Source: Corallococcus terminator
GTDB lineage: Bacteria > Myxococcota > Myxococcia > Myxococcales > Myxococcaceae
DNA length: 42,814 nt
Direction: 5' to 3'
NCBI RefSeq assembly: GCF_003611635.1
Contig: NZ_RAVZ01000035.1
Coordinates: forward strand, 1 to 42,814
The translations under genes and the position numbers were made by a program. Positions 2,946 to 38,638 of this stretch are shown piece by piece. The number at the start of each line of letters is the position of its first letter. Positions within the stretch are counted from its first letter, which is position 1. Under the pieces are notes generated by a model that made no database searches, was not told the DNA's origin, and worked only from the letters and a program-made list of their open reading frames with translations.

Positions 2946-4061
2946 ATGCTGCTCGGACACACCAGGGATGCCAGTTGGCCGGCGCCGGAGCCCGCGCTGG
3001 CGGAGGCCCGGCGGTTCCTGGAGGACTGCCGGGGCAAGCACGTGCTGGTCGTCCCGCACCCGACCGCGGATGGATTGGCCTCTGGGGTGTTGATGCTCCG
3101 GGCGCTCCAGTCCCTGGGGGCGCGCCCGACAGCCCGGCTGCCAGGCAAGGGAGAGGACCTGCACAGCGAGACCTTCCTGGAGCGCCTGGGCACGGCGCCG
3201 GCGGAGGCGCTGGTGGTGTTGGACATGGGCAGCCGCTGGGGTGGGCCGCTGCTGCCGGGGCTGCCCACGCTCGTCGTGGATCGCCATGACCGGCGGGGCG
3301 CGAACGGATTTCCCCCCGGGGTCCAGGTGCTGAGCGCGCACGGCCACGAGCCCGTCGCCAACACCAGCGTGCTCACCTACGTCCTGATGTCGCCGTTCGT
3401 CGTGCCCGGGCCCCTGGAGTGGCTGGCCGCGCTGGGCACCGTGGCGGCGCTGGGCCCGGATGCGCCGATGCCCTTCCTCAAGGACGCGCTGCGGCGGGCG
3501 AAGCGGACGGCGGTGGTGGAGACCGTCTCGCTTTTGAACGCGGCCACGCGTTCGCACCGCGTCGCAACGCCGCTGGCGATGCAGGTGTTGCTGCGCGCGG
3601 GGAGCGCGTCGGACATCCTGGAGAGCCGCGTGCTCGGCGTGGATGCGCTGCGCGACTGCCGGCTGGAGGTCCAGCGCGAGGTGGTCCGCTGCGCGAAGAC
3701 GCCGCCACGCTTCGCGGGCAAGGTGGCCCTGCTGCTGTTCAGCTCCGAGACCCAGGTGCATCCCCTGGTCGCGGTGCGCTGGGCCCAGCGGATGCCCGAC
3801 CATGTCGTCATCGCCGCGAACACCGGCTACGTGCCCGGCCGCGTGGACTTCACGCTGAGAAGCCGCGCGCCGGTGAACCTCACGGGACTGATAGGCAGCG
3901 GCGAGCGTGCGACGCTGGAAGAGACCTCCGAGGAAGGCGACGTCCGGCACGTGGCCAGTGGCCACCTGCCGCCCCCGGACTTCCTGCGCATGCTGGAGGG
4001 CATGGGCTTCCGGGGCCTGAACGACCGCGACGTGGAGCGCCGGGGTGTCGCTCCGGGCTGA
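2946..4061 (+). CDS. Degenerate DHH-family phosphoesterase-like protein
   Basis: A 371-residue protein with the layout of DHH/DHHA1 phosphoesterases (RecJ, NrnA and relatives). Motif I is H38-P-T-A-D42-G, which keeps the His and last Asp but has Thr40 where the family usually has Asp. Motif II is D93 in VVLDMG. Motif III is D112-R-H114, where the family has Asp-His-His. Near the C-terminus, GDVRHVASG (about 340-348) resembles the DHHA1 glycine-rich substrate loop. At least two metal ligands are changed, so activity may be altered or lost. The start ATG has an AGGGAG about 17 nt upstream. The DUF3105 lipoprotein gene begins 18 nt after the stop, suggesting co-transcription. The fold call is fairly sure; the substrate is unknown. 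Confidence 0.7.
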   Translation: MLLGHTRDASWPAPEPALAEARRFLEDCRGKHVLVVPHPTADGLASGVLMLRALQSLGARPTARLPGKGEDLHSETFLERLGTAPAEALVVLDMGSRWGGPLLPGLPTLVVDRHDRRGANGFPPGVQVLSAHGHEPVANTSVLTYVLMSPFVVPGPLEWLAALGTVAALGPDAPMPFLKDALRRAKRTAVVETVSLLNAATRSHRVATPLAMQVLLRAGSASDILESRVLGVDALRDCRLEVQREVVRCAKTPPRFAGKVALLLFSSETQVHPLVAVRWAQRMPDHVVIAANTGYVPGRVDFTLRSRAPVNLTGLIGSGERATLEETSEEGDVRHVASGHLPPPDFLRMLEGMGFRGLNDRDVERRGVAPG

Positions 4062-4631: not shown

Positions 4632-4705
4632 AACAGCCGTAACGCAGGAATGACTTGCATGCGTGTGGGCATCCTCCCCGCCACGGTGGCGTGAGGCGCA
4701 CGACC

Positions 4706-4735
4706 TTGCGCGCCTTGCACCAACGTCTCTTTAAT
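4706..4735 (+). promoter_or_regulatory. Possible sigma-70-type promoter of the NRPS gene
   Basis: TTGCGC (4706-4711) and TTTAAT (4730-4735) are separated by 18 bp. They stand out as the most AT-rich spot in the 140-bp gap before the NRPS. The predicted start of transcription would fall near 4742, leaving a leader of about 80 nt to the ATG at 4825. This is a pattern match only. Confidence 0.3.
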
Positions 4736-4824
4736 TCGAGTCACGCGTCGCCCCTGTTTCATCCGCCTCCGTGTCTCACGCGGTGGCACTGGTCCCCCCA
4801 CCTCCTGGGGGCCGGCGCGACGAC

Positions 4825-7800
4825 ATGACCGATACCGTCGACGCCTCCCCGTCCCCCCGGGGTCTGTCTCCTCGAAACATCGCCGAGGCCTTCGGGACAC
4901 AGGTCGCCCTGCGGCCCCAGGCCGTCGCCGTCCGTTGTGACGGGCAGCAGCTCACGTACGCGGAGCTGGACGCGCGGGCGAACCGGCTCGCGAATGCGTT
5001 GAAGGCGCGGGGCGTGGGACGCGAACAGCCACGGGTGGGCGTGTGTCTGCCACGTTCGGTGGAGCTGCTCGTCGCGCTGCTGGGCATCCTCAAGGCGGGC
5101 GGTGCGTATGTCCCGCTGGATCCGGAGTACCCGGCGGAGCGGCTCGACTTCATGGCCACGGATTCGCGCGTGCGCATCATCGTCACGCACGCGGCGCTGG
5201 AGTCGCGAATGCCTGTCGGTGACTGGCACGCGCTCTGTCTGGATGCGCACGCGGACACCCTGGCGGCCTTCAGCGAGGCGGCCCCCGACTGCGACGCCGT
5301 CGCGGACGACCTGGCATACGTCGTCTTCACGTCGGGCTCCACGGGGCGGCCCAAGGGCGTCTGCGTGCCACACCGGGGCGTGCTGCGGCTGGTGCTGGAC
5401 GCGGACTACGTGCACCTGGGAGCGGACGAGGTGTTGTTGCAACTGGCGCCCGTCGCCTTCGACGCGTCCACGTTCGAGATCTGGGGCGCGCTGCTCAACG
5501 GTGGTCGCGTCGCGGTGTTCTCGCGGGGCGCGTCCGCGCTGGACGAACTGGGCGCCTTCCTGCGCACGGAGCGGGTGACGACGGCGTTCCTCACCACCGG
5601 CCTGTTCAACAACCTGGTGGACCTGGGCCTGCCGGGAACGGACACGCTGCGACAGCTCTTCACGGGCGGCGAGGTGATGTCGCTGCCCCACGCCCGGCGC
5701 GCCCTGGAGGCCCTGCCCCACACGCGCGTCATCAACTGCTACGGGCCTACCGAAAACACCACTTTCACGAGCTGCCAGCCCCTGCGCTCGCCGCTCGGCT
5801 CCGAGCCCGCGCCCATCGGTCACGCCATCTCCGGCACGCGGATGTACGTGCTGGACGACGCGGGCCGCGAGCTGTCCCCGGGCCTCGTGGGCGAGCTGTA
5901 CACGGGCGGCAGCGGCGTCGCGTGGGGCTACTGGGAGCGCCCCGACCTCACCGCGGAGCGGTTCCTGCCGGACCCCTACAGCACCGAACCGGGCGCGCGC
6001 ATGTACCGCTCGGGGGACCTCGCGCGGCGGCTCGCGGACGGCGCGGTGGACTTCGTGGGACGCAGCGACCATCAGGTGAAGGTGCGCGGCTTCCGCATCG
6101 AGCTGGGAGAGGTTGAAGCGGCGCTGCGGCTCCATGCCTCCGTGCAGGAGGCGGTCGCGCTCGTGCGGGAGGATGTGCCGGGAGACAAGCGGCTGGTCAC
6201 CTATGTCACGGCCAGCGAACCCCTGACGGCATCCCTGCTGCGGCTCCACCTGAAGGGCCACCTCCCCGCGCACATGCTGCCATCGGCGATCGTCGTGCTG
6301 GACGTGATGCCACTCGCCACCAACGGAAAGGTGGAGCGAAGGGCCCTGCCGGATCCCCGCGACTGCCCCGGCGCCGATGACGACTTCGTCGCGCCGGAGA
6401 CCGCGCTGGAGCGGGCCGTCGCCAGGGTCTGGGCGGACGTGCTGCGCGTGGACGCCGTCAGTGCCACCGCGGACTTCTTCGAGCTGGGCGGGCAGTCGCT
6501 CCTGGCCACGCGGGCCATCGCCCGATTGGGGAACCTGCTCCAGCGGCCCGTGGCCCTGCGCACGCTCTTCGAGCATCCCACCCTGCGCGACTTCGCCGCG
6601 GCCCTGGAGCGGATCCATCCGGCGTCCGGACACACCGGGGCGCCCATCCCTCCGTGCACGCAGGCGGAGCGGGAACAGCCTTCGTTCTCACAGCAGCGGC
6701 TGTGGTTCCTGGATCGCTGGATGCCAGGCTCGCCGCTGTACTCGCTGCCGATGGCGTTCCGGTTGGAAGGGGCACTGGACGTGTCCGTGCTGGAACAGGC
6801 CCTCCAGGCTGTCGTGGAGCGACACGAAGCACTGCGCACGACGTTTCCCGGTGACGGGGGCCCCGTGCAGCGTGTCGCTTCGCGCCTGGGTGTGACCCTG
6901 GAGTGCGTGGAGTCGCGCTCCGAGGAAGAGACCGCCGGGTGGATGCAGCGTGAGGCGGAGCGACCGTTCAATCTGGCGGAGGGCCCCCTCTTCCGCGCCC
7001 GGCTCATCCGGGAGGGGGAACGCCAGCAGGTGCTGGTGCTCAACCTGCATCACATCATCTCCGACGGGTGGTCCTTCGGCGTGTTGTACCGCGAGCTGTC
7101 GTCGGAGGTCCGGACGCGGAGCCAGGGGGAGGCCTCCGCGCTCGCGCCGCTGCCGCTCCAGTATCCCGACTACGCGGCGTGGCAGCGCCAGTGGCTCCAG
7201 GGCGACGTGCTCCAACGGCAGCTCGGGTTCTGGGAGCAGCAGCTCGCGGGCGTGTCCCACGTGCTGGAGGTGCCCACGGACCGTCCGCGTCCCGCCGTGC
7301 AGCGGTTCGAGGGGGCCACCCATCGCTTCAAGGTCCCCGGGGAGCTTCGCCACGCCCTGGACGGCGTGGCACGCCAGGAAGGTGCCACTCTGTTCATGGC
7401 CCTGCTCACCGGCTTCCAGGTGTTGCTGTCGCGCTACAGCGGTCAACGTGACTTCGTGGTGGGGACGCCCATCGCCAACCGCACGCGCGAAGAGCTGGAG
7501 GGGCTCATCGGCTTCTTCGTCAATACGCTGCCGCTGCGTGTCCGCTTCGAAGGCACGCCCTCCTTCCAGGACGTGCTGCATCAGGTGCGAGACCGCGCGC
7601 TGGGGGCCTATGCGCATCAGGACCTCCCGTTCGAGAAGCTGGTCGAAGCCCTCCAGGTCGAACGGGAACAGAGCCGCACGCCGCTCATCCAGGTGCTGTT
7701 CGCGCTCCAGAACGCCCCGGCCGGTCAGCTCCAGTTGCCGGGCGTGGCCGTCACCCCGCTGACGCTGGAGACCCGGACCTCCAAGTTCGAGCTGTTCCTG

Positions 7801-10800
7801 GCGATGGAGGAGGCCGGCGACGGACTCGTGGGGACGCTCGAATACGCCACGGCGCTCTTCGATGCGTCCACCCTCCATCGCCTGTCCGAGCATTACCTCC
7901 AGGTGCTGCGGCGCTTCGTGGAAGCCCCCTCCCGGGCCACGGCGGACGCGGTCTTCCTGTCGGAGGCGGAGCAGCGACAGGTGATCCGGGACTGGAACGC
8001 GACGGCGCGTCCCTACCCGTTGGACCTGTCCATCGTGGACGCCTTCGCGGCCCAGGTCGCCCTGCGCCCCCAGGCCGTCGCCGTGAGCCATGGCGCCACG
8101 ACGCTCACCTACGCGGAGCTGGATGCCCGTGCGAACCGGGTTGCCCTTCGGCTGCGCGCGCTCGGGGTCCACCGACGCAAGCCGCAGGTGGGCGTGTGCC
8201 TGCCTCGCTCCGTCGATCTCATCGTGTCGTTGCTGGCCATCCTCAAGGCCGGCGGCGCCTACGTCCCGCTGGATCCGGATCATCCGTCGGAGCGGCTCGC
8301 CTTCGTGGCCGGGGATGCGCGGCTCGTCGCCATCGTCACCCACGAGGCGCTGGCCTCACGGTTGCCCGGAGGAACCTGGACGCCGGTGTGCCTGGATGCT
8401 CCCGACGACACCGTGGAGGGACCGCCTGGATGGGAGGCGGTGTCGTCCGTGGATCTGGCGCACATCCTCTACACGTCAGGCTCCACGGGCCGGCCCAAGG
8501 GCGTGTGCATACCGCATCAGGGCGTGGTGCGCCTGGTGCTCAATCCCGACTACGTAAGGTTGGGCCCTGGCGACCGGATGGCGCAGTCCACCACCATCGC
8601 GTTCGACCTCTCCACGCTGGAGATCTGGGGCGCGCTGCTCAACGGGGCCACGCTGGTCCTGTTCTCCAGGGATGAGATCATCGACCCGGAGGTGCTGGCG
8701 CGCCGCCTCCTGGACGAGCGCATCACGCACATGGTGCTCGCCACGGCCCTGTTCAACCACGTGGCCCGCACGCGTCCGGAGGCCTTCCGGCACCTGACCT
8801 GGATGATCTTCGGCGGTGAGGCCGCGGACGTCTCCTGCGTCAACGCGGTGCTCGCGCACGGAGGCCCCGCCGCGCTGATCAACGGCTACGGTCCCACGGA
8901 GAACACGTCCTTCAGCACGTGGTTCCGGGTGCCGCATGCGGAAGCCACCTCCGTCCCCATCGGGGGGCCGCTCGCCAACAGCACCGCCTATGTGCTCGAC
9001 GCCCGACTCCAGGTGGTCCCGCCGGGGGTTGTCGGGGAGTTGTTCGTGGGGGGCGACGGACTGGCGCTCGGGTACTGGGATCGGTCCGCGCTCACCGCGG
9101 AGAAGTTCGTTCCCCATCCGTTCAGCGACGTTCGCGGCGCGAGGCTCTATCGCACCGGGGATCTGGTGCGACAGCGGACCGATGGCGTCCTGGAGTTCAT
9201 CGGGCGCCGCGATCATCAGGTGAAGCTGCGGGGCTTCCGCATCGAACTGGGCGAGGTGGAAGCAGCCCTGCGTCAGCATCCCGCCGTGCACGAAGCACTC
9301 GTCATGGTGCGCGAGGATGCTCCGGGCGATCGGCGGCTGGTCGCCTACGTCGCCTCCGCGGACCTCGCGGAGGCGGTGCTGCGAGAATACCTCCAGGCCC
9401 GGCTGCCAGAGCACATGGTGCCCGCCGCGTTCGTGGTGATGACGGCGCTGCCCCTGTCTCCCAACGGGAAGATCGATCGGCGGGCGCTGCCGGCACCCGA
9501 AACGTCCCCCTCCGTCACCGACGACTTCCTCGCGCCCCGCAGCCCGCTCGAAGCGCGGGTGGCGGACATCTGGGCGTCCGTGCTCGGCGGACGCGAGGTG
9601 GGAGCGCATTCCCACTTCTTCGACCTGGGGGGACATTCGCTGCTGGCCACGCAGGTGGTGTCACGCGTGCGCGATGCGCTGGGCGTGTCCCTTCCCGTGC
9701 GCGCGCTCTTCGAAGCCCCGCGCCTGGAGGCCTTCGTCCGCGGCGTGGCGCGACTGCTGGACACAGGAAGCCGCGACACCTCGCGCATCCCCCTGCTGCC
9801 TCGCGAGGCCGCCCTTCCCCTCTCCTTCGCGCAAGAGCGGTTGTGGTTCCTCGGTCGTCTTCATGAGGCACGGGGCGTCTACAACATGCCCATGGCCCTG
9901 CGCCTGGACGGCCCGCTGGACGTCCCCGTGCTGCGCGCCAGCCTTGAGGCCCTCATCCTCCGGCACGAATCCCTGCGCACCACGTTCCCTGAAGGGGACC
10001 ACCCCACACAGCGCATCCAGGCGGAGCCTGGGCTCGCGTTGGAAGTCCAGCGCATCCAGGCTCATGGACCGGACGATGCGCGGGTCCAGGACCGCCTGAG
10101 GCAGGAGGCGGCGGCTCCCTTCGACCTGGAGCACGGGCCGTTGTTCCGGGCGCTGCTGCTCCAGCTCGGAGGCACGTGCTCGGTGCTGGTGCTCAACCTC
10201 CATCACATCGTTTCCGACGGATGGTCCCTGGGCGTGCTGTTCCGGGAGCTGTCCGTGGAGTACCGGGCGCGCCTTCAAGGACCACGCACGCAACCGGCTT
10301 CGTTGCCCTTGCAGTACGCGGACTACGCGGCATGGCAGCGGCAGTCCCTTCAGGGGGAAGGGCTCCAGCGGCAGCTCGACTTCTGGAAGCAGCAGGTCGC
10401 GGAGGCACCGCACGTCCTGGATTTGCCCACGGACCGTCCGCGTCCCGCCGTGCAACGGTTCGAAGGCGCGACCCTGCGCTTCACGTTGGCTTCCTCGCTC
10501 CGCCACGCACTGGAGAACGTGGCTCGACAGGAAGGCGCCACGCTGTTCATGACGCTGCTGGCGGGCTTCCAGGTGCTGCTGTCACGCTACAGCGGTCAGC
10601 GGGACTTCATCGTCGGCACGCCCATCGCCAACCGCACGCGGGAGGAGTTGGAGGGGCTCATCGGCTTCTTCGTCAACACGCTGCCGCTGCGCGCTCGGCT
10701 GGAAGGCTCACCCTCCTTCCGCGACGTGCTGCGTCAGGTGCGGGACCGGGCCCTGGGCGCCTACGCACATCAAGAGCTGCCCTTCGAAAAGCTCGTGGAG

Positions 10801-13800
10801 GAGCTGCACGTCGAGCGGTCCCTGAGCCACGGCCCCCTGGTGCAGGTGATGTTCGCCCTGCAGAACGCGCCGGGCAGCCTGCCCCAGCTTCCAGGCCTCC
10901 AGGTGCAGGCCCTGGAGCTTCAAACCCATACATCCAAGTTCGACCTGAGCCTGATGCTGGAGGAGACAGACGACGGGTTCTCGGGCGCATTCGAATACGC
11001 GACCGCGCTCTTCGAGCCGCGCACCGTCGAGCGGATGGCCGACCACTTCCGCCGCCTGCTCGAAGGCGCGCTCCATCAACCCGATGCTTCCATCCACACC
11101 CTGCCCTGGCTCTCCAGGGAGGAGCACCACCGCGTCCTGGTGGAATGGAACACCACCGCCCGGCCCTATCCGCGCGACATGTCCCTCGCGCAGGCGTTCG
11201 AAGCGCAGGTGGCAGCGCGACCTGGGGCCATCGCCGTGCGTCACGGAGCGCAGGCCCTCACATACGCGGAGCTGGACGTGCGCGCCAACCAGCTTGCTTG
11301 GGCCCTCAAGGCGCAGGGCGTGGGGCGAGTGACGCCCAGGGTCGGCGTGTGCCTGCCCCGTGGCATCGACCTCGTCGTGTCGCTCGTCGCCATCCTCAAG
11401 GCGGGCGGCGCCTACGTGCCGCTGGATCCGGACTACCCCTCCGAGCGCCTCGCCTTCATGGCGGGTGATGCACGGCTCGTCACGGTCGTGACCCAGGCGT
11501 CACACGCGGACGTGGTGCCGGCCGGCGCGTGGTCCATCCTGTGCCTGGATGCACAGGCGGAGGCGTGGACCTCGCGCGACCGGCGCGCGCCTCCGGACGA
11601 AGGCTGCGCTGACGACCTGGCGCACATCCTCTACACGTCAGGCTCCACCGGCCAGCCCAAGGGCGTCTGCATCCCGCACCGAGGGGTCGCGCGACTGGTC
11701 CTCGACCCGGATTTCCTCCAGGTCCGTCCCGAGGACCGCGTCGCCCAGACCTCCACCGTCGCCTTCGACGCTTCGACCTTCGAGCTGTGGGGGGCCCTGC
11801 TCAATGGCGCCACGCTCGTCCTGCTGTCGAAGGAGGAGGTCATCGAGCCCTTGGTGCTCGCCAGGCGGATCCGAGATGAGGGCATCACCATCCTCTTCCT
11901 GACGACGGCCCTCCTCAACCACGTTGCTCGCACCGACGCGTCGCTGCTGAAGGGCCTCCGTGGGTTGCTCTTCGGCGGGGAGGCCGCGGATCCAACCTGC
12001 ATCCGCGCGGTGCTGGCCCACAGTGCTCCGGAGCACCTCGTGAATGCCTACGGGCCCACGGAGAACTCGGCGTACAGCACGTGGTTCTCACCGACTCGGA
12101 TCGAACCTGATGCGGTGTCCGTGCCCATTGGGCGCCCCGTCTCCAACAGCACCGCGTACGTCTTGGATGAGCACCGCCATCCCGTGGCGCCCGGTGTCGT
12201 CGGTGAGCTCTTTGTCGGTGGCGATGGACTGGCATGGGGTTACTGGGAGCGGCCCGAACTCACCGCTGACGCCTTCGTCCCCCACCCCTTCTCCTCCACT
12301 CCCGGCGCCCGGCTCTACCGGACGGGCGACCTCGTCCGGCAGCTCCACGATGGGGCATTCGTCTTCGTGGGCCGCCGCGATCACCAGGTGAAGGTGCGTG
12401 GCTTCCGCATCGAGCTGGGTGAAATCGAAGCCGTCCTGCGCCGGCACCCTTCCGTGAAGGAAGCCCTTGTCTTGATGCGGGAGGACGCGCCCGGGGACAA
12501 GCGGCTGGTTTCCTACGTCACCTTCCGCGAGGCACTGACGGCCAGCGACCTGCGCGCCCACGTCCAGGAACTGCTTCCCAGCCACATGGTCCCCTCGGCG
12601 TTCGTGCTGCTCGATGCGCTGCCGATGACGCCGAATGGAAAGGTGGATCGTCGCGCGCTGCCTGCGCCCGTTTCAGAGGAGGGCCCCACCGAAGCGCGGC
12701 CCCTGACCGCGCTGGAACAGACGCTGACCACCATCTGGTGCGCGGTGCTCCATCTGTCCCACGTCCGTGTTGACGCGAACTTCTTCGACCTTGGGGGCCA
12801 CTCGCTGTTGGCCACGCAGGTCGTCTCCCGAATCTCTCAGGCGCTGGGCCTTCCCGTTCCCGTCCGCACCCTCTTCGAGTTCCCCTCCATCGAAGCCCTG
12901 GCGAAAGCGTTGGAAACACACACGAAGGACACCGTCCTTCCCGGTCCCGCGATTCGGGCCCTGCACCATGAAGGACCGCCGCCGCTGTCCTTCGCGCAGG
13001 AACGCCTCTGGTTCCTGCACCAGTTCCACAACGACCGGGTCGCCTACAACATGCCCCTGGCGTTGCGGTTGGAAGGAGCGCTGGACGTGGCCGCGCTGGA
13101 GCACGGACTTCAGGCCCTCGTGGATCGGCATGAATCGCTGCGCACTTCGTTCCCGGGCGATGGCGTTCCAGCACAGCGAATCGCGCCCCGACTCTCGGTG
13201 TCGTTCCGTACGGTGGAGGCTCGCTCCGGGGAAGAGGCCGACACCCTCCTGAAGCAGGAAGCGGAGACGCCCTTCGACCTCGCGGAGGGCCCGCTGTTCC
13301 GAGCCATCCTGGTGCGCGAGGATGCGCGGCATCACGTGCTGCTGCTCAACCTGCACCACATCGTATCCGACGGATGGTCGCTCGGCGTTCTCTACAAGGA
13401 GCTGTCCTCCGAATACCAGGCGCGACAGGCGGGACGGCCTTCGGACCTCGCGCCCCTGCCCGTGCAGTACGCGGACTTCGCGGCATGGCAGCGGCAGTGG
13501 CTCCAGGGGGACGTGCTCCAGCGTCGGCTCGATTACTGGAAGCGGGAACTCGAGGACGCACCGAGGCTGCTGGAGCTGCCCACGGACCATCCGCGTCCCT
13601 CCGTGCAGCGATTCGCGGGAGCCACCCACGTCTTCAACCTCCCCCGCACCGTGCGCGAGCCCCTGGAGGGCCTGGGTCGCCAGGAGGGCGCCACACTGTT
13701 CATGACGCTGCTGGCGGGCTTCCAGGTGCTGCTGTCGCGCTACAGCGGCCAGCAGGACCTCATTGTCGGCACACCCATCGCCAACCGCACGCATGAGGAG

Positions 13801-16800
13801 TTGGAAGGGCTCATCGGATTCTTCGTCAACACACTGCCCCTGCGCGCCCGGATGGATGGCACCCCTTCCTTCCGCGAAGTCCTGCGCCAGGTGCGGGACC
13901 GGGCCCTCGGCGCCTACGCGCATCAGGAGCTGCCCTTCGAGAAGCTCGTGGAGGAGCTGCACGTCGAGCGTGCCCTGGACCACGGTCCCCTGGTGCAGGT
14001 GATGTTCACCCTCCAGAACACGCCCGGGACACCACCCCGGTTCCCCGGCCTCCAGGTCGAGGCGCTGGAACTCCAGACCCATACCTCGAAGTTCGACCTC
14101 ACCCTGGCCGTGACCGAAACACCCGAAGGTCTGAGCAGTGCGTTCGAATACGCGACCGCGCTCTTCGAACACCGCACCATCGAGCGGATGGCCGACCACT
14201 TCCGGCGGCTGCTCGAAAGCGCGCTCCATCAACCCGACGCTTCCATCCATGCACTGTCCTGGCTCTCCGAGGAGGAACGCCACCGCGTCCTCGTGGAATG
14301 GAACACCACCGCCCGTCCCTACCCACGCGACGCATCCCTCGCGCAGGTGTTCGAAGCGCAGGTGGCAGCGCGACCTGAGGCCATCGCCGTGCGTCACGGG
14401 GCCCAGGCCCTCACGTACGCGGAGCTGGATGTGCGCGCCAACCAGCTCGCGTGGGCCCTCAAGGGGCAGGGCGTTGGGCGTGAGACGCGCCAGGTCGGCG
14501 TGTGCCTGCCCCGTGGCATCGACCTCATCGTGTCGCTCGTCGCCATCCTCAAGGCGGGTGGCGCCTACGTGCCACTGGATCCGGACTACCCCTCTGAACG
14601 CCTCGCCTTCATGGCGGCCGACGCGCGACTGCACCGGATCATCACGGACACGACGCTTGCCCCCCGGATTCCCGCGGACGGTGTCGAAACCCTCCGTATC
14701 GACGCGCTGGAGCCCACTTCACACGCGGACTCACCCTTCGATGCTCGCGGTTTCCATCCCGCCGAACCCGCGTACGTCATCTATACGTCCGGATCCACGG
14801 GGCGCCCCAAGGGCGTCTGTGTTCCCCATCAGGCCGTGCTGCGACTGGTGATGGACGCGGACTACATCCCGTTCGGTCCGGACGACCGCGTGGCCCAGGC
14901 CGCGACGGTGTCCTTCGATGCGTCGACGTTCGAGCTGTGGGGCGCGCTGCTCAACGGCGCCACGCTCGTCCTGTTCTCGAAGGAGGAGATCATCGAGCCC
15001 GCGACGCTCGCCCGCGTCCTGCGCGACGAGCGCATCACCGCGCTGTTCCTGACCACGGCCCTCTTCAACCACGTCGCACGCATGGAGCCCACGGCCTTCA
15101 ATGACCTGTCCACGCTCCTCTTTGGCGGAGAGGCCGTGGATCCGGCCTGCGTCAACCGACTGCTCGCCCACGGTGGGCCTCGTCGGCTGTTGCACGTCTA
15201 CGGCCCCACGGAGAACACGACCTTCAGCACCTGGCATTCTGTGACAGGGCCCGTCACCGACACCGTGCCCATCGGTCGGCCCGTCTCCAACAGCACGGCG
15301 TACGTGCTGGATGCGCACCGCCATCCCGTGGCGCCCGGTGTCGTCGGCGAACTCTTCGTTGGCGGCGACGGCCTCGCCTGGGGCTACTGGGAACGGCCTG
15401 AACTCACCGCCGAAGCATTCATCCCCCACCCGTTCTCCACCTCCCCCGGCGCCCGCCTCTACCGCACGGGCGACCTCGTCCGGCAGCTCCACGATGGTGC
15501 CCTCGTCTTCGTGGGCCGCCGCGACCATCAGGTGAAGGTGCGTGGTTTCCGCATCGAGCCGGGCGAAATCGAAGCCGTCCTGCGCCAGCATCCTTCCGTG
15601 CGTGAAGTCATCGTCCTCGTTCGAGAGGACTCGCCCGGAGACAAGCGGCTGGTCGCCTACGTCACCTTCCGCGAGGCCCTGACCGCCAGCGATCTGCGCA
15701 CCCATGTGCAAGGGCTGCTTCCCAGCCACATGGTCCCCACCGCGTTCGTGCTGCTCGACTCGCTGCCGCTCAACGCGAACGGGAAGGTGGACCGACGCGC
15801 CCTGCCCCAACCCGAAGAGTCCACGCAGGCGGACGACACCGGCGTGGCACCTCGCACGCCCCTGGAGCAACAGGTGGCGGACCTGTGGGCACAGGTCCTC
15901 ACGCGCACGTCCATCAGCGTCACCGCGAGCTTCTTCGACCTGGGAGGACACTCCCTGCTCGCGGCGCAGCTCGTGTCGAAGCTGTCCGAACACTTCCAGC
16001 TCAAGGTCCCCCTCCAGGTCCTCTTCCAGAGCCCGACGGTCGCGGCGCTCGCGCAATGGCTCCAGTCGCGGCTCACACCTGACGCTCCCGGGACCCCGCA
16101 GGCCCACGCCCTTCCCGAGGGCGTCGTGCAGCTCCAGCAGGGCCGTGCGGACCTCCCGCCGCTGTGGTGCATGCACCCGGTGGGCGGCACGGTGTTCTGC
16201 TACCAGGACCTCGTGCGGGCGCTGGGACCCGAGCGCACCGTCTACGGTCTCCAGGCGCCGGGCGTGAACGGCGAATGCCCACCGCTGGGCAGCATCGAAG
16301 CACTCGCGTCGTACCACCTGAACGCGATGCTCCAGTGCCAGCCCAAGGGCCCGCACTACCTCGTGGGCCTCTCGATGGGCGGCACCATCGTCTACGAGAT
16401 GGCCCAGCGCATGCTGCGGCTGGGCATCCCTCCCGCGCTGCTCGTCTTCCTGGACACGCCCGGCCCCGGCCAGATGCCCACGCGCTTCGAGGACGACGCC
16501 GCGCTGCTCGCGGCCATGTTCGGAGATGACACACCGACGCTCGCGCAGCACCTGCGCACGCTGCCGCCGCACGAACAGATGCGCGAAGTCCTGCGGCAGG
16601 CCCGCGCGGGAGCGACCGTGCCGGACTCGTATTCGCTCCGGGACCTGGAGGTCTTCCTGGACGTCTGGAAGGCCCACATGCGGGCCCTCTTCAGCTACGA
16701 ACCGGTGGCCTACGCGGGATGCGCCACCTACCTCCGGGCCCAGGAGCACATCCCGCCCCACCCGCTCCATCCCGAACAACCCTGGCAGGTGCTCGTCCAG

Positions 16801-16947
16801 CACGGGCTGGAGGTGCTGCCCGTGCCCGGCAACCACCAGACGATGATCGAACCGCCCCACGTCGAAGCCATGGCGAAGCACCTGGCCGACTGCATGCGGC
16901 GCATCGAGGCCGGGCCCGCTTCAGCGCCGCGCACCTCCGCCGCGTAG
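4825..16947 (+). CDS. Four-module nonribosomal peptide synthetase with terminal thioesterase
   Basis: A 4040-residue megasynthetase that activates and joins four amino acids on phosphopantetheine arms and releases the peptide. Domain order by base position: A1 about 4900-6350, T1 (GGQSLL, about 6487); C2 about 6670-7970 (HHIISDGWS, 7048), A2 about 8030-9490, T2 (9619); C3 9808-11110 (HHIVSDGWS, 10201), A3 11180-12660, T3 (12781); C4 12976-14270 (13357), A4 14340-15810, T4 (15931); TE 16136-16900 with GLSMGG (16366) and GNHQT. No epimerisation, methylation or starter C domain is seen. Pocket codes I extracted by eye: A1 DAFFFGCTFK, A2 DLLVIGGSFK, A3 DAFFLGAAYK, A4 DAFFLGVTFK. A1, A3 and A4 resemble Ile/Val/Leu codes; A2 is unassigned. 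No MbtH, transporter or regulator gene is nearby. The start is ATG 4825; GTG 4771 would add 18 residues. Confidence 0.95.
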   Translation: MTDTVDASPSPRGLSPRNIAEAFGTQVALRPQAVAVRCDGQQLTYAELDARANRLANALKARGVGREQPRVGVCLPRSVELLVALLGILKAGGAYVPLDPEYPAERLDFMATDSRVRIIVTHAALESRMPVGDWHALCLDAHADTLAAFSEAAPDCDAVADDLAYVVFTSGSTGRPKGVCVPHRGVLRLVLDADYVHLGADEVLLQLAPVAFDASTFEIWGALLNGGRVAVFSRGASALDELGAFLRTERVTTAFLTTGLFNNLVDLGLPGTDTLRQLFTGGEVMSLPHARRALEALPHTRVINCYGPTENTTFTSCQPLRSPLGSEPAPIGHAISGTRMYVLDDAGRELSPGLVGELYTGGSGVAWGYWERPDLTAERFLPDPYSTEPGARMYRSGDLARRLADGAVDFVGRSDHQVKVRGFRIELGEVEAALRLHASVQEAVALVREDVPGDKRLVTYVTASEPLTASLLRLHLKGHLPAHMLPSAIVVLDVMPLATNGKVERRALPDPRDCPGADDDFVAPETALERAVARVWADVLRVDAVSATADFFELGGQSLLATRAIARLGNLLQRPVALRTLFEHPTLRDFAAALERIHPASGHTGAPIPPCTQAEREQPSFSQQRLWFLDRWMPGSPLYSLPMAFRLEGALDVSVLEQALQAVVERHEALRTTFPGDGGPVQRVASRLGVTLECVESRSEEETAGWMQREAERPFNLAEGPLFRARLIREGERQQVLVLNLHHIISDGWSFGVLYRELSSEVRTRSQGEASALAPLPLQYPDYAAWQRQWLQGDVLQRQLGFWEQQLAGVSHVLEVPTDRPRPAVQRFEGATHRFKVPGELRHALDGVARQEGATLFMALLTGFQVLLSRYSGQRDFVVGTPIANRTREELEGLIGFFVNTLPLRVRFEGTPSFQDVLHQVRDRALGAYAHQDLPFEKLVEALQVEREQSRTPLIQVLFALQNAPAGQLQLPGVAVTPLTLETRTSKFELFLAMEEAGDGLVGTLEYATALFDASTLHRLSEHYLQVLRRFVEAPSRATADAVFLSEAEQRQVIRDWNATARPYPLDLSIVDAFAAQVALRPQAVAVSHGATTLTYAELDARANRVALRLRALGVHRRKPQVGVCLPRSVDLIVSLLAILKAGGAYVPLDPDHPSERLAFVAGDARLVAIVTHEALASRLPGGTWTPVCLDAPDDTVEGPPGWEAVSSVDLAHILYTSGSTGRPKGVCIPHQGVVRLVLNPDYVRLGPGDRMAQSTTIAFDLSTLEIWGALLNGATLVLFSRDEIIDPEVLARRLLDERITHMVLATALFNHVARTRPEAFRHLTWMIFGGEAADVSCVNAVLAHGGPAALINGYGPTENTSFSTWFRVPHAEATSVPIGGPLANSTAYVLDARLQVVPPGVVGELFVGGDGLALGYWDRSALTAEKFVPHPFSDVRGARLYRTGDLVRQRTDGVLEFIGRRDHQVKLRGFRIELGEVEAALRQHPAVHEALVMVREDAPGDRRLVAYVASADLAEAVLREYLQARLPEHMVPAAFVVMTALPLSPNGKIDRRALPAPETSPSVTDDFLAPRSPLEARVADIWASVLGGREVGAHSHFFDLGGHSLLATQVVSRVRDALGVSLPVRALFEAPRLEAFVRGVARLLDTGSRDTSRIPLLPREAALPLSFAQERLWFLGRLHEARGVYNMPMALRLDGPLDVPVLRASLEALILRHESLRTTFPEGDHPTQRIQAEPGLALEVQRIQAHGPDDARVQDRLRQEAAAPFDLEHGPLFRALLLQLGGTCSVLVLNLHHIVSDGWSLGVLFRELSVEYRARLQGPRTQPASLPLQYADYAAWQRQSLQGEGLQRQLDFWKQQVAEAPHVLDLPTDRPRPAVQRFEGATLRFTLASSLRHALENVARQEGATLFMTLLAGFQVLLSRYSGQRDFIVGTPIANRTREELEGLIGFFVNTLPLRARLEGSPSFRDVLRQVRDRALGAYAHQELPFEKLVEELHVERSLSHGPLVQVMFALQNAPGSLPQLPGLQVQALELQTHTSKFDLSLMLEETDDGFSGAFEYATALFEPRTVERMADHFRRLLEGALHQPDASIHTLPWLSREEHHRVLVEWNTTARPYPRDMSLAQAFEAQVAARPGAIAVRHGAQALTYAELDVRANQLAWALKAQGVGRVTPRVGVCLPRGIDLVVSLVAILKAGGAYVPLDPDYPSERLAFMAGDARLVTVVTQASHADVVPAGAWSILCLDAQAEAWTSRDRRAPPDEGCADDLAHILYTSGSTGQPKGVCIPHRGVARLVLDPDFLQVRPEDRVAQTSTVAFDASTFELWGALLNGATLVLLSKEEVIEPLVLARRIRDEGITILFLTTALLNHVARTDASLLKGLRGLLFGGEAADPTCIRAVLAHSAPEHLVNAYGPTENSAYSTWFSPTRIEPDAVSVPIGRPVSNSTAYVLDEHRHPVAPGVVGELFVGGDGLAWGYWERPELTADAFVPHPFSSTPGARLYRTGDLVRQLHDGAFVFVGRRDHQVKVRGFRIELGEIEAVLRRHPSVKEALVLMREDAPGDKRLVSYVTFREALTASDLRAHVQELLPSHMVPSAFVLLDALPMTPNGKVDRRALPAPVSEEGPTEARPLTALEQTLTTIWCAVLHLSHVRVDANFFDLGGHSLLATQVVSRISQALGLPVPVRTLFEFPSIEALAKALETHTKDTVLPGPAIRALHHEGPPPLSFAQERLWFLHQFHNDRVAYNMPLALRLEGALDVAALEHGLQALVDRHESLRTSFPGDGVPAQRIAPRLSVSFRTVEARSGEEADTLLKQEAETPFDLAEGPLFRAILVREDARHHVLLLNLHHIVSDGWSLGVLYKELSSEYQARQAGRPSDLAPLPVQYADFAAWQRQWLQGDVLQRRLDYWKRELEDAPRLLELPTDHPRPSVQRFAGATHVFNLPRTVREPLEGLGRQEGATLFMTLLAGFQVLLSRYSGQQDLIVGTPIANRTHEELEGLIGFFVNTLPLRARMDGTPSFREVLRQVRDRALGAYAHQELPFEKLVEELHVERALDHGPLVQVMFTLQNTPGTPPRFPGLQVEALELQTHTSKFDLTLAVTETPEGLSSAFEYATALFEHRTIERMADHFRRLLESALHQPDASIHALSWLSEEERHRVLVEWNTTARPYPRDASLAQVFEAQVAARPEAIAVRHGAQALTYAELDVRANQLAWALKGQGVGRETRQVGVCLPRGIDLIVSLVAILKAGGAYVPLDPDYPSERLAFMAADARLHRIITDTTLAPRIPADGVETLRIDALEPTSHADSPFDARGFHPAEPAYVIYTSGSTGRPKGVCVPHQAVLRLVMDADYIPFGPDDRVAQAATVSFDASTFELWGALLNGATLVLFSKEEIIEPATLARVLRDERITALFLTTALFNHVARMEPTAFNDLSTLLFGGEAVDPACVNRLLAHGGPRRLLHVYGPTENTTFSTWHSVTGPVTDTVPIGRPVSNSTAYVLDAHRHPVAPGVVGELFVGGDGLAWGYWERPELTAEAFIPHPFSTSPGARLYRTGDLVRQLHDGALVFVGRRDHQVKVRGFRIEPGEIEAVLRQHPSVREVIVLVREDSPGDKRLVAYVTFREALTASDLRTHVQGLLPSHMVPTAFVLLDSLPLNANGKVDRRALPQPEESTQADDTGVAPRTPLEQQVADLWAQVLTRTSISVTASFFDLGGHSLLAAQLVSKLSEHFQLKVPLQVLFQSPTVAALAQWLQSRLTPDAPGTPQAHALPEGVVQLQQGRADLPPLWCMHPVGGTVFCYQDLVRALGPERTVYGLQAPGVNGECPPLGSIEALASYHLNAMLQCQPKGPHYLVGLSMGGTIVYEMAQRMLRLGIPPALLVFLDTPGPGQMPTRFEDDAALLAAMFGDDTPTLAQHLRTLPPHEQMREVLRQARAGATVPDSYSLRDLEVFLDVWKAHMRALFSYEPVAYAGCATYLRAQEHIPPHPLHPEQPWQVLVQHGLEVLPVPGNHQTMIEPPHVEAMAKHLADCMRRIEAGPASAPRTSAA
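10981..12660 (+). repeat. Intragenic NRPS repeat, first copy (end of C3, A3)
   Basis: This stretch aligns with 14134-15800 at an offset of 3153 bp falling to 3144 bp, with long identical runs at DNA level, such as 33 bp beginning at 12171 and at 15315. The order is collinear, so one C-A-T module was copied or homogenised by gene conversion. The region about 11470-11620 does not match the second copy. Confidence 0.7.
14134..15800 (+). repeat. Intragenic NRPS repeat, second copy (end of C4, A4)
   Basis: This is the partner of 10981-12660. Similarity is high through the end of the C domain, the A-domain entry and the A-domain C-terminal half. It breaks down between about 14630 and 14780, between core motifs A2 and A3, and then returns. 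Confidence 0.7.
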
Positions 16948-22607: not shown

Positions 22608-23216
22608 TCAGTTGAAGGCGTAGAGGTTGGGCGGCGTGGTGCTGGTGAAGAAGTTCGTGAACGTGGCGCTGTAGTGGATGCCGCTCACGCCGTTGATGGT
22701 GCCGGACATGTTGCCCACCACATTCACCGTCGTGCCGTTGGTCTGGATGGACGGGTTGCCGGTGGTGATCTGCCCGTAGGGATAGTCCGCCTGGATGTCG
22801 GCGTCGCGCACCACGGCCAGCGTCGCGGGATCCACGTGCTTGAGGCCCAGCCGGATCGGCGACGAACCGCTGAAGGTCCCCTTGAAGACGAACGCCGGCA
22901 CCAGCCCCAGCGCGTTGCCCCGCATCTCCAGCTTGGGCTCGTAGCCGTTGGAGGTCCCGAGCACCACCGACTGACCGGCCGTGTAGGGGCACCCCGTGCC
23001 CCCGTTGCGCGTCAGGGTGATGTTCCAACTGGGCGGCGCGGTGGTGACCTGCGTCGCATTGAGCGTGAAGCTGCACCCCTGCGACGTCGCCGTCGAAGGG
23101 AAGATGAAGGCCGCCTCCTGCTGCGCCAGGTGCTCCTCCTCCACCCGCTCCGGCCCGCCACAGGCGGACACCACGAGAGCTGAACCCAGACACACCGCGC
23201 GCGTGAACTTGTTCAT
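22608..23216 (-). CDS. Lipoprotein of unknown function, paralogue A
   Basis: A 202-residue lipoprotein. The signal ends Val-Val-Ser-Ala-Cys19, followed by an acidic stretch and QQEAAF. I do not recognise a named domain. It is clearly paralogous to the protein at 24061-24657: shared features are TSQGC (C48), a second Cys 28 residues on (C76), LGLKHxxPxTLAxVR, TTVxVxGxxSGTxxG and FFTSTTxP at the C-terminus. The two Cys may form a disulfide. The predicted fold is beta-rich. The ATG at 23216 is preferred over TTG 23222 because AGAGG lies at a good distance. It is divergent from the expansin gene at 23335. Confidence 0.8.
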   Translation of the reverse strand: MNKFTRAVCLGSALVVSACGGPERVEEEHLAQQEAAFIFPSTATSQGCSFTLNATQVTTAPPSWNITLTRNGGTGCPYTAGQSVVLGTSNGYEPKLEMRGNALGLVPAFVFKGTFSGSSPIRLGLKHVDPATLAVVRDADIQADYPYGQITTGNPSIQTNGTTVNVVGNMSGTINGVSGIHYSATFTNFFTSTTPPNLYAFN

Positions 23217-23246
23217 TGGCAAAACACCTCTGCACTTCGGGGAAGG

Positions 23247-23281: not shown

Positions 23282-23315
23282 GGGCAGGCGGATGTCTGCC
23301 CTTGACGCAGGGCAG
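23282..23315 (+). promoter_or_regulatory. Triple GGGCAG / CTGCCC / GGGCAG element before the expansin gene
   Basis: GGGCAG (23282-23287), CTGCCC (23296-23301) and GGGCAG (23310-23315) are each separated by exactly eight bases. The middle element can pair with either neighbour. It ends 19 nt before the ATG at 23335, and TTGACG (23302-23307) lies in the second spacer. It could be a double operator or two exclusive RNA hairpins. Confidence 0.4.
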
Positions 23316-23334
23316 CGCGTGTATGCTGGCCGGT

Positions 23335-24030
23335 ATGAACCGACCGTCCTTCTGGAATCCTTCGCTGTTGGTGGCCGTGGTCTCGTTCGCCTGTGGAGGC
23401 TGTGGCGATTCCGCCTCCGGAGGCGGCGTGACGCTGGGCGAGGAGCAGAAGGGGATCGCGACCTACTACGACGCCAACGGAAGCGGCAATTGCAGCTACG
23501 ACAAGGGCGGCGACCTGATGGTGGCGGCGATGAACGCCGACCAGTACGACAACAGCGCCGCCTGCGGCCAGTGCGTGGACATCGTCGGCCCCAAGGGGAA
23601 CCTGCGCGTGCGCATCGTGGACCAGTGCCCCGACTGCGAGAAGGGCCACCTGGACCTGAGCAGCGAAGCCTTCGAGAAGATCGCGGAGATGAAGGACGGC
23701 CGGGTGGACATCACCTGGACGCCGGTGTCCTGCGACGTCGCCGGCCCCCTGAAGTACCACTTCAAGGAAGGCAGCAACCCGTGGTGGACCGCCATCCAGG
23801 TGCGCAACCACCGGCTGCCCATCAAGAAGCTGGAGTGGAAGCGCGGCGGTGACTGGAAGAGCCTGCGGCGCGAGAGCTACAACTACTTCGTCACCGACGA
23901 TGGCGTGGGCGAAGGCAGCTTCCAACTGCGCGTCACCGCCAGCGACGGCCAGCAGCTCACCGACACGCTGGACAAGGTGCTGGACGACGAGTCCGTGGAC
24001 GGGGCGGAGCAGTTCGCGCCCCAGAAGTAG
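23335..24030 (+). CDS. Cysteine-rich bacterial expansin with lipoprotein signal
   Basis: A 231-residue protein of the expansin family, the same length as Bacillus YoaJ (EXLX1). Expansins loosen cellulose and wall-polymer contacts without hydrolysis. D1 (about 38-135) shows ATYYDANG, D96 and D107 (HLDLS), which match the two key Asp residues of EXLX1. D2 (CBM63, about 138-230) keeps W150-W151 and Y182, the flat cellulose-binding aromatics, in NPWWTAIQVRNH and SYNYF. D1 has six Cys (53, 77, 80, 98, 101, 133), including CGQC as in plant expansins, and Cys98 replaces the Tyr next to the first Asp. The signal ends Ser-Phe-Ala-Cys20, so it may be membrane-anchored. The ATG at 23335 fits the signal peptide. 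It lies between two paralogous lipoprotein genes. Confidence 0.9.
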   Translation: MNRPSFWNPSLLVAVVSFACGGCGDSASGGGVTLGEEQKGIATYYDANGSGNCSYDKGGDLMVAAMNADQYDNSAACGQCVDIVGPKGNLRVRIVDQCPDCEKGHLDLSSEAFEKIAEMKDGRVDITWTPVSCDVAGPLKYHFKEGSNPWWTAIQVRNHRLPIKKLEWKRGGDWKSLRRESYNYFVTDDGVGEGSFQLRVTASDGQQLTDTLDKVLDDESVDGAEQFAPQK

Positions 24031-24060: not shown

Positions 24061-24657
24061 TCAGAACGTCGCGATGGACGGGGACGTGGTGCTCGTGAAG
24101 AAGTCCGGGTAGGTGGCGACGTAGTTGCTGCCGCTGCCCGTCTGCCCGGACAGCGTGCCGCTCTTGGTGCCCGACACCGTCAGCGTCGTCCCGTCCGCAG
24201 CGATGGACAGGTTGCCGGAGTTGACGTTGCCCTGGCCCAGGAAGATGGACAGGCCCGTGGAGCGGACGGTGGCCAGGGTGTCCGGAGCCAGGTGCTTGAG
24301 CCCCAGGGACCGGGGCGCGCTGCCGCTGACGCTCGTCTTGTAGGTGTAACCCACCGCCACGCCCAGGTCGTTGGCGGCCAGCGACAGCGTGGGCGCCGTG
24401 CCGGTGGATGAGCCCACCACGACGCTGCCCGCCCCGAAGGCACACGTGACGTCCGCCGCGCGGGAGACCGTCACGTCATAGATGGGAGGCAGGGTGCCCG
24501 GCCGCGCCGCGTACGACACGGTGAAGGTGCACCCCTGGGAGGTCCCCGTCACCAGGGCCGCCTCCTGGGTGGCGAGCTCATCCTCCCCCTCCAGGCCACC
24601 GCACGCCGTGAGGGCCAGGACCGCGCAAAGAGCGACGACAGGCTTCAGCTTCCACAT
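24061..24657 (-). CDS. Lipoprotein of unknown function, paralogue B
   Basis: A 198-residue lipoprotein paralogous to 22608-23216. The signal ends Ala-Leu-Thr-Ala-Cys19, then Gly-Gly, acidic residues and ATQEAAL. It shares TSQGC (C43), a second Cys 29 residues later (C72), LGLKHxxPxTLAxVR and a C-terminal FFTSTT. I recognise no characterised domain. GGGAG lies about 9 nt before the ATG at 24657. It is convergent with the expansin gene, with only 30 bp between the stops and no terminator there. The same promoter-like 15-mer as paralogue A lies upstream, so the two are probably expressed together. Confidence 0.8.
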   Translation of the reverse strand: MWKLKPVVALCAVLALTACGGLEGEDELATQEAALVTGTSQGCTFTVSYAARPGTLPPIYDVTVSRAADVTCAFGAGSVVVGSSTGTAPTLSLAANDLGVAVGYTYKTSVSGSAPRSLGLKHLAPDTLATVRSTGLSIFLGQGNVNSGNLSIAADGTTLTVSGTKSGTLSGQTGSGSNYVATYPDFFTSTTSPSIATF

Positions 24658-24789: not shown

Positions 24790-27700
24790 CTAACGCCGCA
24801 GCATGCCGCGCAGCAGCTCCAGCGCTTCGGTGATGCCCTGCCAGACCTGGAGGGCCTTGATGCCCTCCCCTTCGCCCTGCACGTTGCGGCGGGCGGCGCG
24901 CTCCAGCGGCAGGAGCGCCCCTTCCACCAGCTCAATCTGCCGGCTGAGCTCCGCCGGAGACGGACCGCTCGCCGCGCGCTGGAGCGACTCCGCCGCGGAC
25001 GGCGTCGGCATGGACACGGACACCGGCCGGTCCGCCAGGGCGGTGATGGCGTGGGAGAGCTGCGCCAGGTACGGCCCGAAGTCGGGGGCCGGCGCGGCCA
25101 GCGGCACATTGCGCAGGGTGGGCGCCTCGGATGCGGTCGCCACGCGTTCCGTGAGGGCCTTGAGCAACTGGGCCAGGTGCTTGAGGTACGGCGCCAGGTC
25201 CGTCGCCGGAGCGGCCGGGGCCACGACAGGCGCCGGCAGGGGCGGCGGCTTCGCGGCCGTCTCACGACCGACGCGGGCCACCTCCAGGACAGCTTCGCGC
25301 AGGGCCTCCAGGTGCGGGGCCACCTCCACCATGGGGTCCACGTCCGGAGCGCTGCCCGCTTGAGCTGCGGCCTGGACCACGGCGTCGCGCACCGCGCCCA
25401 ACTGCTCCTCGATGGCGCCCAGTTGGCCGGTGACGCGCGCGACGGGGTCGTCCTCCTTGCCCCCCATGCGTTTCACGCGGGCGAAGCCCTGCTTGATCTC
25501 CTCCCAGCGCTTCGCCTTCTCCGGCGTCAGGCGCCCACGCATCTCCGCCAGCTTGAGCAGGTTCTGCTCCGCGGCGGTGGTGAGCGTCTGGGATTCACCC
25601 TGGTAGTGGTCGTCGATGCGGCGCTCCAGCTCGTCGTCCGTCATCGCGGAGACGACCTTCTCCGCCATCTTGCCCATGTTGCGGTAGCTGCCCTGCAACT
25701 TGAACGGCGGCTCCGTGCGGAAGCGCTCGTCCTGCGCGGCGGAGGCGATGTACTGGAGGTTCACCTTGAGCAGCACCTGCTGCACCCGGAACAGCCGCTG
25801 GAGGACAGCGATGATCTCCTGGAGCTCCGCCGCCGCGTAGCCGTGCTTCAGCTCGCCGGAAGGGACTTCCTCCCCCTTCGCCATCCGGATGAGGCGGTGC
25901 ACGTCCTGCGGGTCGCGCGTGGCCAGCGGCGCCAGCACCGGGTTGGAGGTGAGCGCGTTCTCCAGGTAGCTGAGCGCGAACAGCTCTTCCTTGCCATCCA
26001 GGATGTCGCCCAGGTTGTACGTGTCCGCGCGGTTGGCGAGCATGTCCGGGATGCGGAAGCGCTCACCCGTCTCCGTGTACGGGTTGCCCGCCATCACCAC
26101 GCAGAACTTCTTGCCGCGCAGATCGTACGTGCGCGTCTGGCCATTCCAGACGCCCTCCACGCGGCGCTGGCCGTCGCACAGGGAGATGAACTTCTGGAGC
26201 AGCTCCGGATCCGTGTGCTGGATGTCGTCGAGGTAGAGCATCACGTTGTTGCCCATCTCGAAAGACAGGTTGATGCGCTCCACCTCCTGCCGCGACGTGG
26301 CGTTGGGCGCCTCCGCCGGATCCAACGACTTCACCGAGTGGCCCAGCGCGGGACCGTTCACCTTCACGAAGGTGAGGCCCAGGCGGCTGGCCACGTACTC
26401 CATCAGCGTCGTCTTGCCGTAGCCCGGAGGCGACATGAGCAGCAGCATGCCCATGCGGTCCGTGCGCTTGCCCTCGCCCGCCGCGCCCAACTGCTTGGCC
26501 AGGTTGGCGCCGATGAGCGGCAGGTACACCTCGTCGATGAGCCGGTTGCGCACGAAGCTCGTGAGCACCTTGGGCGTCAGCTCCTCCAGCCGCAGCTTGC
26601 GCCGCTCCTTGTCCAGCAGGTCGCGCAGGTACGCGCGGTAGGCCGTGTACGCGGGCACGCGCACCTGACGGAACTCGCCCAGCCGGGACAGGAACTCATC
26701 CAGGCGCAGCGGCAGCTTGCGGTCCTGCACGCGCGGGTGGCTGCCCAGCAGGCCCGTGGCCTCCGAGGACGTGATGGCGCCCGCCGTCTCGCGGTCCAGC
26801 TTGCGCTCGGTGATGAGCACCACCGCCGTCTCCAGCGAAACGTAGGCCGCGTCGCCCGCGCCCCCCTCGCGCTTCGCGAGGAACGCGTCCACCCAGGCCC
26901 GCGCGATGCGCAGGCGCTCCGGCAGGTTCTTCTCCAGGCCGCGCAGGTCCTCGTCGAACGCGGTGCGCGAACCGTGCCGGTCCAGGTGCGCGAGGAAGGC
27001 CTCCTGCACCGCCAGCGCCTCGCGGCTGGTGGTGAAGCGGGGGTTCGCCACCGCCAGCTCCTCCACGAGGTAGCGGCCCGCCTGACGTCCTTCCGCGGGC
27101 GACGCCGCGAGCCCGTGCCCCTTGAGGAACGCGAGCACCTGCTCACCCAGCTCATCGCCCAGCGCCACCAGGTCCGACGACGTATCGAACGCCTGGCGCA
27201 GCCGCGCGAGGCTCTGCGCGCGACGGTGGAACACGCCCCGGAGCGTGTCGTCCGTGTCGAACGCCCAGTAGAGCGCGGCCCAGGCGCGGGGCACCGGGGC
27301 GAAGCGCAAGAGGCCCGCGCCCTGGTGCAGCGCGAGCAGCTTCTCCAGGAGGCTCACCGCGTCCGCGTCGTGCACGCCGCGCTCGTAGCCCTCATCGAAG
27401 CGGTCCGCCGAGTACGCCCGGACGCGCTCCAGCAGGGTGCCCTGCGCGCCGGCCTCGTACAGCGCCGCGAGCGTCAGTCCGCCCCTGCCCTCCTCCGCGT
27501 CCATCAGCAGGGCCGCGGCCAGGTACTCCGCGCGGTAGACGTCGCGCGTCTCGGAGACGAGGTGCTGCTCCCACAGCTCCCGGTACTTGAGCAGCTCCGG
27601 GTCCTCCAGCTTCTGCGTGTAGTCGGAGCCGGTGAGCTGGAGGTACAGCGCGCCGTCGCGCGGCACCAGCGTCAGGTCCAGGGGCTGGGTGTTGACGTGG

Positions 27701-30321: not shown

Positions 30322-30378
30322 GGATGTTCACCGAAAAGGGATGCGGTTCGCGGATGCGCCGGAGGACGACCCCTGCGC

Positions 30379-33498: not shown

Positions 33499-33524
33499 GC
33501 CTCGGAAAAAACGTTGGAGTTTGG

Positions 33525-38563: not shown

Positions 38564-38638
<75 letters not shown>

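Follow-up and report, generated by a model that had tools for sequence, protein, structure and literature searches.

A single gene with four modules

What does a large NRPS gene make when none of its neighbours seems to take part, and could it act alone? The question is raised by a gene in a stretch of 42,814 nucleotides of the predatory soil bacterium Corallococcus terminator (the window, whose positions are used throughout). The gene occupies 4825-16947 of the forward strand (12.1 kb) and encodes 4040 amino acids from an ATG; the open frame extends from 4771 to 16947 with an alternative GTG, and the ATG at 4825 is kept in all ten Corallococcus carriers when these are aligned. A Pfam scan of the whole 4040 residues returned four AMP-binding, four AMP-binding_C, four PP-binding, three Condensation and one Thioesterase match and no further family, and with 16 domain matches in a protein of this length chance is no concern. 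The order of the A and C matches, together with that of the C, T and TE motifs, gives A-T-C-A-T-C-A-T-C-A-T-TE, i.e., the A-T-(C-A-T)x3-TE layout that the first-pass annotation had proposed. As expected of a type-A NRPS, there is one A and one T domain per module, with a C domain between modules, all in order, and the catalytic motifs of C, T and TE are intact in 10/10 Corallococcus proteins, each with three HHxxxDGxS, four LGG[HQ]S and one GLSMGG. They are also intact in both Myxococcus proteins scanned, one of which was run against Pfam. Matches of the whole protein to the NCBIfam models of aureusimine AusA and of EntF were rejected as an identity, as they reflect the summed generic NRPS domains over four modules.

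All domains lie on the forward strand, those of the A and T type being placed by Pfam with alignment or motif scan, and their ends, except for T3, are approximate (for A1 they were estimated from motif spacing). The protein starts with A1 (4897-6354) and T1 (6415-6612, FFELGGQSL), which are followed by C1 (6682-7980, HHIISDGWS), A2 (8044-9501) and T2 (9556-9753, FFDLGGHSL), then by C2 (9811-11130, HHIVSDGWS), A3 (11206-12663) and T3 (12718-12912, FFDLGGHSL), and finally by C3 (12982-14283, HHIVSDGWS), A4 (14356-15813), T4 (15871-16068, FFDLGGHSL) and a type I thioesterase (16159-16887) with its serine in GLSMGG, which was recognised by Pfam, structure match and motif scan. The intergenic stretch upstream (4632-4824, forward strand) holds a block, CCTTGCGCG...TCTCTTTAATTCGA..CACGCG, that is largely conserved in the alignment of the ten carriers and the deletion scar of C. 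interemptor (see below), and it is probably the gene's own promoter region; a sigma-70 consensus scan of this stretch found no match.

Substrates of the adenylation domains

The pocket codes were taken by alignment of the A domains, since an insertion in these domains shifts the fourth code position; what we take to be the GrsA code positions were anchored on motifs. The resulting codes, DAFFFGCTFK (A1), DLLVIGGSFK (A2), DAFFLGAAYK (A3) and DAFFLGVTFK (A4), are identical to those that had been read by eye in the first-pass annotation, and its description of the pockets as hydrophobic-looking holds. Such A domains may be promiscuous. The A4 code is described for Ile (also Val) in the part of a study that deals with cyanopeptolins (PMC2533009), and for Ile where suomilide and aeruginosin-type protease inhibitors are treated (PMC13122637). 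A1 equals this code at 8/10 positions and A3 at 7/10 (hand count), so that, of the three Ile/Val/Leu codes claimed earlier, A4 gains a published Ile/Val assignment, and A1 and A3 are only near it. The code nearest to A2 is the Val-type DALWIGGTFK (7/10 positions), which is listed as one of the commonest codes of the Leu/Ile/Val group, there among the Val-activating domains, in the pertinent section of PMC12283262. A literature search by code string found DAFFLGVTFK alone among the window's codes and no match for those of A1, A2 and A3. Probably, A1 and A3 take Ile/Val/Leu-like residues and A2 an aliphatic one.

Among the relatives, whose codes were read over 15 complete proteins and one partial protein, A4 is DAFFLGVTFK in 15/16 domains and A2 follows DLLVxGGxxK in 14/15, whereas A1 and A3 are variable in the alignment. 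In one genome (G095, locus L150) A1 itself is DAFFLGVTFK, and in another (G010) the A4 code differs (DAFFVGGTFK). No polar-looking pocket was seen by eye in any of these proteins.

Condensation domains and configuration of the product

A tree was computed for 85 C/E domains of the organism's own genome, drawn from 12 contigs (11 with other NRPS genes, and the window); in it the three C domains of the NRPS form a private clade with 100% SH-aLRT. Four C domains stand after an E-like match; they fall in a group of six (96% SH-aLRT), two members of which are not labelled as standing after E, the labels being rough and the E-like matches short, and the window's three lie outside this group. Compared with solved structures, C1-C3 score 270-294 bits with TycC6, which we take to be LCL, versus 108-137 with TycB1 and SrfA-C, presumably DCL; their best structural matches, which tell against a firm assignment, are the C domains of teixobactin Txo1/Txo2. 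The motif LPxDxxRP marks LCL domains and HH[I/L]xxxxGD dual E/C domains, according to the motif descriptions of Rausch et al. (PMC1894796). The former is found after C4 as LPTDxPRP in C2 and C3, and as VPTDRPRP, with V for L, in C1. The dual motif, searched as HH[ILV]xxxxGD, is absent from 10/10 proteins in a scan that had no positive control, the other C domains scanned in the genome being matchless as well. By their position outside the DCL clade and by the LPxDxxRP motif, C1-C3 are classed as LCL-type, and because this subtype is combined with the absence of an E domain, an all-L product is the best guess. The earlier suggestion of a chain without epimerase and perhaps all-L thus survives as such a guess, supported by the tree, the structure scores, the LCL motif and the lack of the dual E/C motif.

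Chain release by the thioesterase

The solved relatives nearest to the TE by sequence are ABBFA_003403, presumably an Acinetobacter protein, and then EntF. Neither the TE sequence nor these relatives discriminate between hydrolysis and cyclisation, and the fold does not tell TE hydrolases from cyclases. An unassisted all-L cyclic tetrapeptide is strained. We therefore rank a linear acid above a dimer ring and put a four-residue ring last, the acid leading because an all-L aliphatic tetrapeptide closes poorly as a matter of general chemistry. The first-pass annotation had left the choice between a free acid and a ring; the strain of the all-L four-residue ring makes the latter weaker than it was stated. 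The dimer ring recalls the gramicidin S synthetases, in which the TE joins two hydrophobic half-peptides. The likeness lies in a TE that can join such halves, the difference in the halves themselves, which there have five residues with D-Phe and Pro and are made by two genes.

The TE, which has the usual serine motif, might instead close the chain head to tail to give a cyclic hydrophobic tetrapeptide resembling the xenotetrapeptide. One fungal four-module NRPS reportedly leads to hydrophobic cyclic tetrapeptides (PMC4041764), and XtpS of Xenorhabdus nematophila is, like the gene studied here, a single four-module gene. XtpS makes cyclo(vLvV), which shares the four aliphatic residues, but that product is cyclic with D residues (D-Val), and C/E domains appear in the figure legends of the source (PMC10443035), whereas the NRPS of the window has only LCL-type C domains, and the dual C/E feature of XtpS was found in 0/10 proteins by the same motif scan, again with no positive control. 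The 12-membered ring is further disfavoured on general chemical grounds because the chain should be all-L, and we regard head-to-tail closure as unlikely.

A gene without recognised partners

On its 5′ side the NRPS gene is accompanied by genes for a peptidase M2, a protein without Pfam match (2946-4061), which we take to be a DHH protein, and a DUF3105 protein, and on its 3′ side by genes for a protein with a weak carbohydrate-binding match, an HGSNAT-like acyltransferase, a glyoxalase-like protein and a vWA protein. No transporter, regulator, MbtH or tailoring family was found among the six of these seven nearest neighbours that have a Pfam match, the seventh being the matchless 2946-4061. 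Farther off in the window follow a DUF3686 ATPase, an SPFH protein, topoisomerase IB, an S1 protein and MurJ. Judged by these families, none of the neighbouring genes points to a peptide pathway, and Pfam searches of the NRPS and its neighbours agree with the first-pass annotation in that no epimerase, starter C domain, MbtH, transporter or regulator is recognised nearby. Elsewhere in the genome (10.35 Mb) there are three PPTase-family matches and one MbtH gene, and Condensation-family matches number 111, three of them in the NRPS gene. One more orphan NRPS is unsurprising in this genus, since an average Corallococcus genome is credited with 55 predicted clusters, 21 of them NRPS, in the genus-wide figures of PMC6306037.

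A self-sufficient NRPS has a parallel in the same genus. The corA gene of C. exiguus alone suffices for coralinone production in an E. coli host whose only other addition is a PPTase and, as far as the account of strain SDU70 in PMC10979478 goes, it is likewise a single autonomous gene that begins with A-T and activates Leu, Ile and Val. The difference is that CorA is A-T-C-A-T-KS-AT-ACP-TE and joins a dipeptide to a ketide, whereas here there are four amino-acid modules; the KS-AT-ACP part of the cor-like pyrazinone synthetases is absent from the NRPS by Pfam. A gene on another contig of the organism's own genome (C122, L149 3003-11129, reverse strand), considered as a corA that could serve as an Ile/Val reference, was rejected, as it has no TE and different pockets. 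By motifs and translation it reads A-T-C-A-T-KS-AT-ACP, a shape like that of cor-like pyrazinone synthetases with a separate TE. Described myxobacterial tetrapeptides do exist, namely the chloromyxamides (known here from a title cited in PMC10435759). Compared by compound name only, they differ in a chloromethyl-methoxypipecolic acid unit that should need tailoring enzymes, and clustered tailoring genes of the sort expected from that name were not recognised at the window or at the Myxococcus loci. No description of the NRPS gene or its product was recognised in the literature searched, which lay outside subscription journals.

Distribution and empty sites

The named relatives of the TE at 83-93% are those of Corallococcus praedator, C. 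exercitus, Corallococcus sp. AS-1-6 and a Myxococcaceae MAG; three Myxococcus follow at 72-73%, and C. interemptor has a short TE remnant (57% over the last 54 residues). With the TE as a probe, four-module orthologs were found in 9/15 other Corallococcus genomes (TE identity 83-93%). Family-wide, at E of at most 1e-80, 17/96 genomes match, the window's own included: 10/16 in Corallococcus and 7/27 in the genus that holds Myxococcus qinghaiensis, the latter identified through matching contig coordinates, while the other 53 genomes, from 24 genera, have none.

In all ten Corallococcus carriers the NRPS gene lies between the genes for the DUF3105 and the carbohydrate-binding protein. In Myxococcus, a TPR gene stands 3′ of it in 7/7 carriers and a lactonase-like gene 5′ of it in four of the five loci covered on that side (the exception being L150), and since these flanks differ from those in Corallococcus, each genus has its own NRPS site. 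Pfam was run on thirteen Myxococcus frames, of which one is the NRPS and seven lack any family match (among them several that are probably not real genes); the five others match TPR, CinA-like, thymidylate kinase or lactonase families, and none of them a tailoring family. The same two neighbours in 10/10 carriers, together with another site in Myxococcus without recognised tailoring genes, argue for the autonomy of the NRPS.

In all six non-carrier Corallococcus genomes both flanks are on a single contig, separated by 664-1017 bases versus 12,984 in the window. In one of them (G014) similarity on the left runs precisely up to the stop codon of DUF3105 and, on the right, begins again with the 7th base past that of the NRPS. 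C. interemptor, equated with G008 through shared contig coordinates, has a deletion scar (L088, around 6678-7025), in which the 5′ leader of the NRPS runs straight into the final portion of the TE. At the corresponding place in three of the seven Myxococcus carriers, the DUF3105 gene directly adjoins the downstream one with no NRPS between them, a count that leaves out G022, G026 and G030, where the DUF3105 gene was not found in the stretch compared, and G032, where the downstream protein is unmatched. Fixed non-biosynthetic flanks in carriers and adjoining flanks in non-carriers make this a solitary gene and a one-gene presence/absence trait.

The NRPS might nevertheless be part of a longer pathway, its product being tailored or extended by enzymes encoded elsewhere, and the 111 Condensation-family matches mean that partners in trans would be available. 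This is set against a protein with a starting A-T and a TE of its own, C domains that keep to a private clade among the 85 compared, and a Corallococcus site at which the NRPS is present or absent alone, and we think a longer pathway distinctly improbable.

Proposed mechanism

We give a probability of roughly 70% to the reading that this is a self-sufficient type-A NRPS, which joins four aliphatic L-residues from a free amino start and releases them through its TE as a linear acid or a dimeric ring. Transferases encoded in the genome would load phosphopantetheine on the four T domains, and A1, with no starter C domain before it, would load a residue resembling Ile/Val/Leu whose amino group is free. 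The three LCL C domains would then add the A2 residue, probably aliphatic, an Ile/Val/Leu-like residue (A3) and Ile/Val (A4), all of them L if the C subtype and the lack of an E domain are a guide. The TE serine would take the chain, and hydrolysis would most likely release it as a linear tetrapeptide acid; alternatively, two chains would be joined into an eight-residue ring. The product would presumably need no tailoring.

Arrival, loss and selection

A tree of four flanking proteins (16 rows, three of them, G003, G007 and G013, incomplete) needs at least three changes of NRPS state. The NRPS tree, for which module 1, most of C1 and the TE were used so as to leave out a recombined tract, splits the same two Corallococcus clades by long branches. 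Four-fold-site divergence of the NRPS is 0.33-0.38 to the other Corallococcus clade versus 0.22-0.26 within the window's clade, and the resulting between-/within-clade ratio of about 1.5 lies near the lowest of the values for the five flanking genes (means of about 1.4 for the M2 peptidase and 1.8-2.2 for the other four). The long-branch split and the larger between-clade divergence led us to reject a recent transfer from the other Corallococcus clade; an ancient exchange by recombination keeps some small probability. From the split, the divergence, the empty sites and the scar, we read this as one old arrival in Corallococcus followed by several losses, at least one of which is proved by the scar.

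Such losses raise the possibility of a gene that is decaying or silent, as it is absent from 6/15 other Corallococcus genomes, one of them with the deletion scar. In the carriers themselves, though, frame and scanned motifs are intact (10/10), and between the window and the nine others the four-fold-site difference of 22-38% exceeds the amino-acid difference of 10-24%, which points to purifying selection and makes decay very improbable.

A natural module exchange

In one Corallococcus carrier (G010, locus L074), A2 is 92% identical to its own A3, compared with 62-64% in the other nine genomes. By DNA identity, its own module 3 overtakes the orthologous module 2 between residues 987 and 1017 (the range may also be given as about 990-1016), close to the end of C1, judging from how the Pfam hits are spaced in the window. 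At the right edge identity falls from 97% to 73% at about residue 1786, the HHxxxDG motif of C2 being at residue 1784; this edge rests on residues 1786-1899, as C2 and C3 are alike from about 1899 onwards (84-94% to both). From this switch in identity over about 990-1785 we conclude that A2 and T2, with the last stretch of C1 and roughly the N-terminal half of C2, were exchanged as a block for a copy of the corresponding part around module 3.

Significance

The enzyme is of an ordinary kind and its product may be modest. Few natural-product loci are easier to test in a foreign host than a single gene for which no partners are evident, and the orthologs form a series of the same architecture, in which A4 is conserved, A1 and A3 differ, and a module has been exchanged naturally in one case. 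Such natural pairs make rules of NRPS recombination and A-domain specificity testable: the block copy in G010 is the kind of exchange that is sought by engineers, and the related pair G010/G006 would be a direct natural test. It is a speculative and rather doubtful extension that the NRPS represents a one-gene trait of two myxobacterial genera, giving a family of all-L aliphatic tetrapeptides whose sequence evolves by block swaps inside the gene, and that it is costly or frequency-dependent. If this were true, the repeated loss of the NRPS would mark such a trait, e.g., a signal or a protease inhibitor in predation.

Other features of the window

Two homologous lipoprotein-like proteins (43% identity, no Pfam match) are encoded on the reverse strand at 22608-23222 and 24061-24657, and between their genes, on the forward strand, lies that of an expansin/barwin-like protein (23302-24030). 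At 24790-34884 an 1843-aa DUF3686 AAA ATPase adjoins an SPFH/Band 7 protein and topoisomerase IB, and two tandem tRNA-Met genes (cat) occupy 38564-38793 on the reverse strand.
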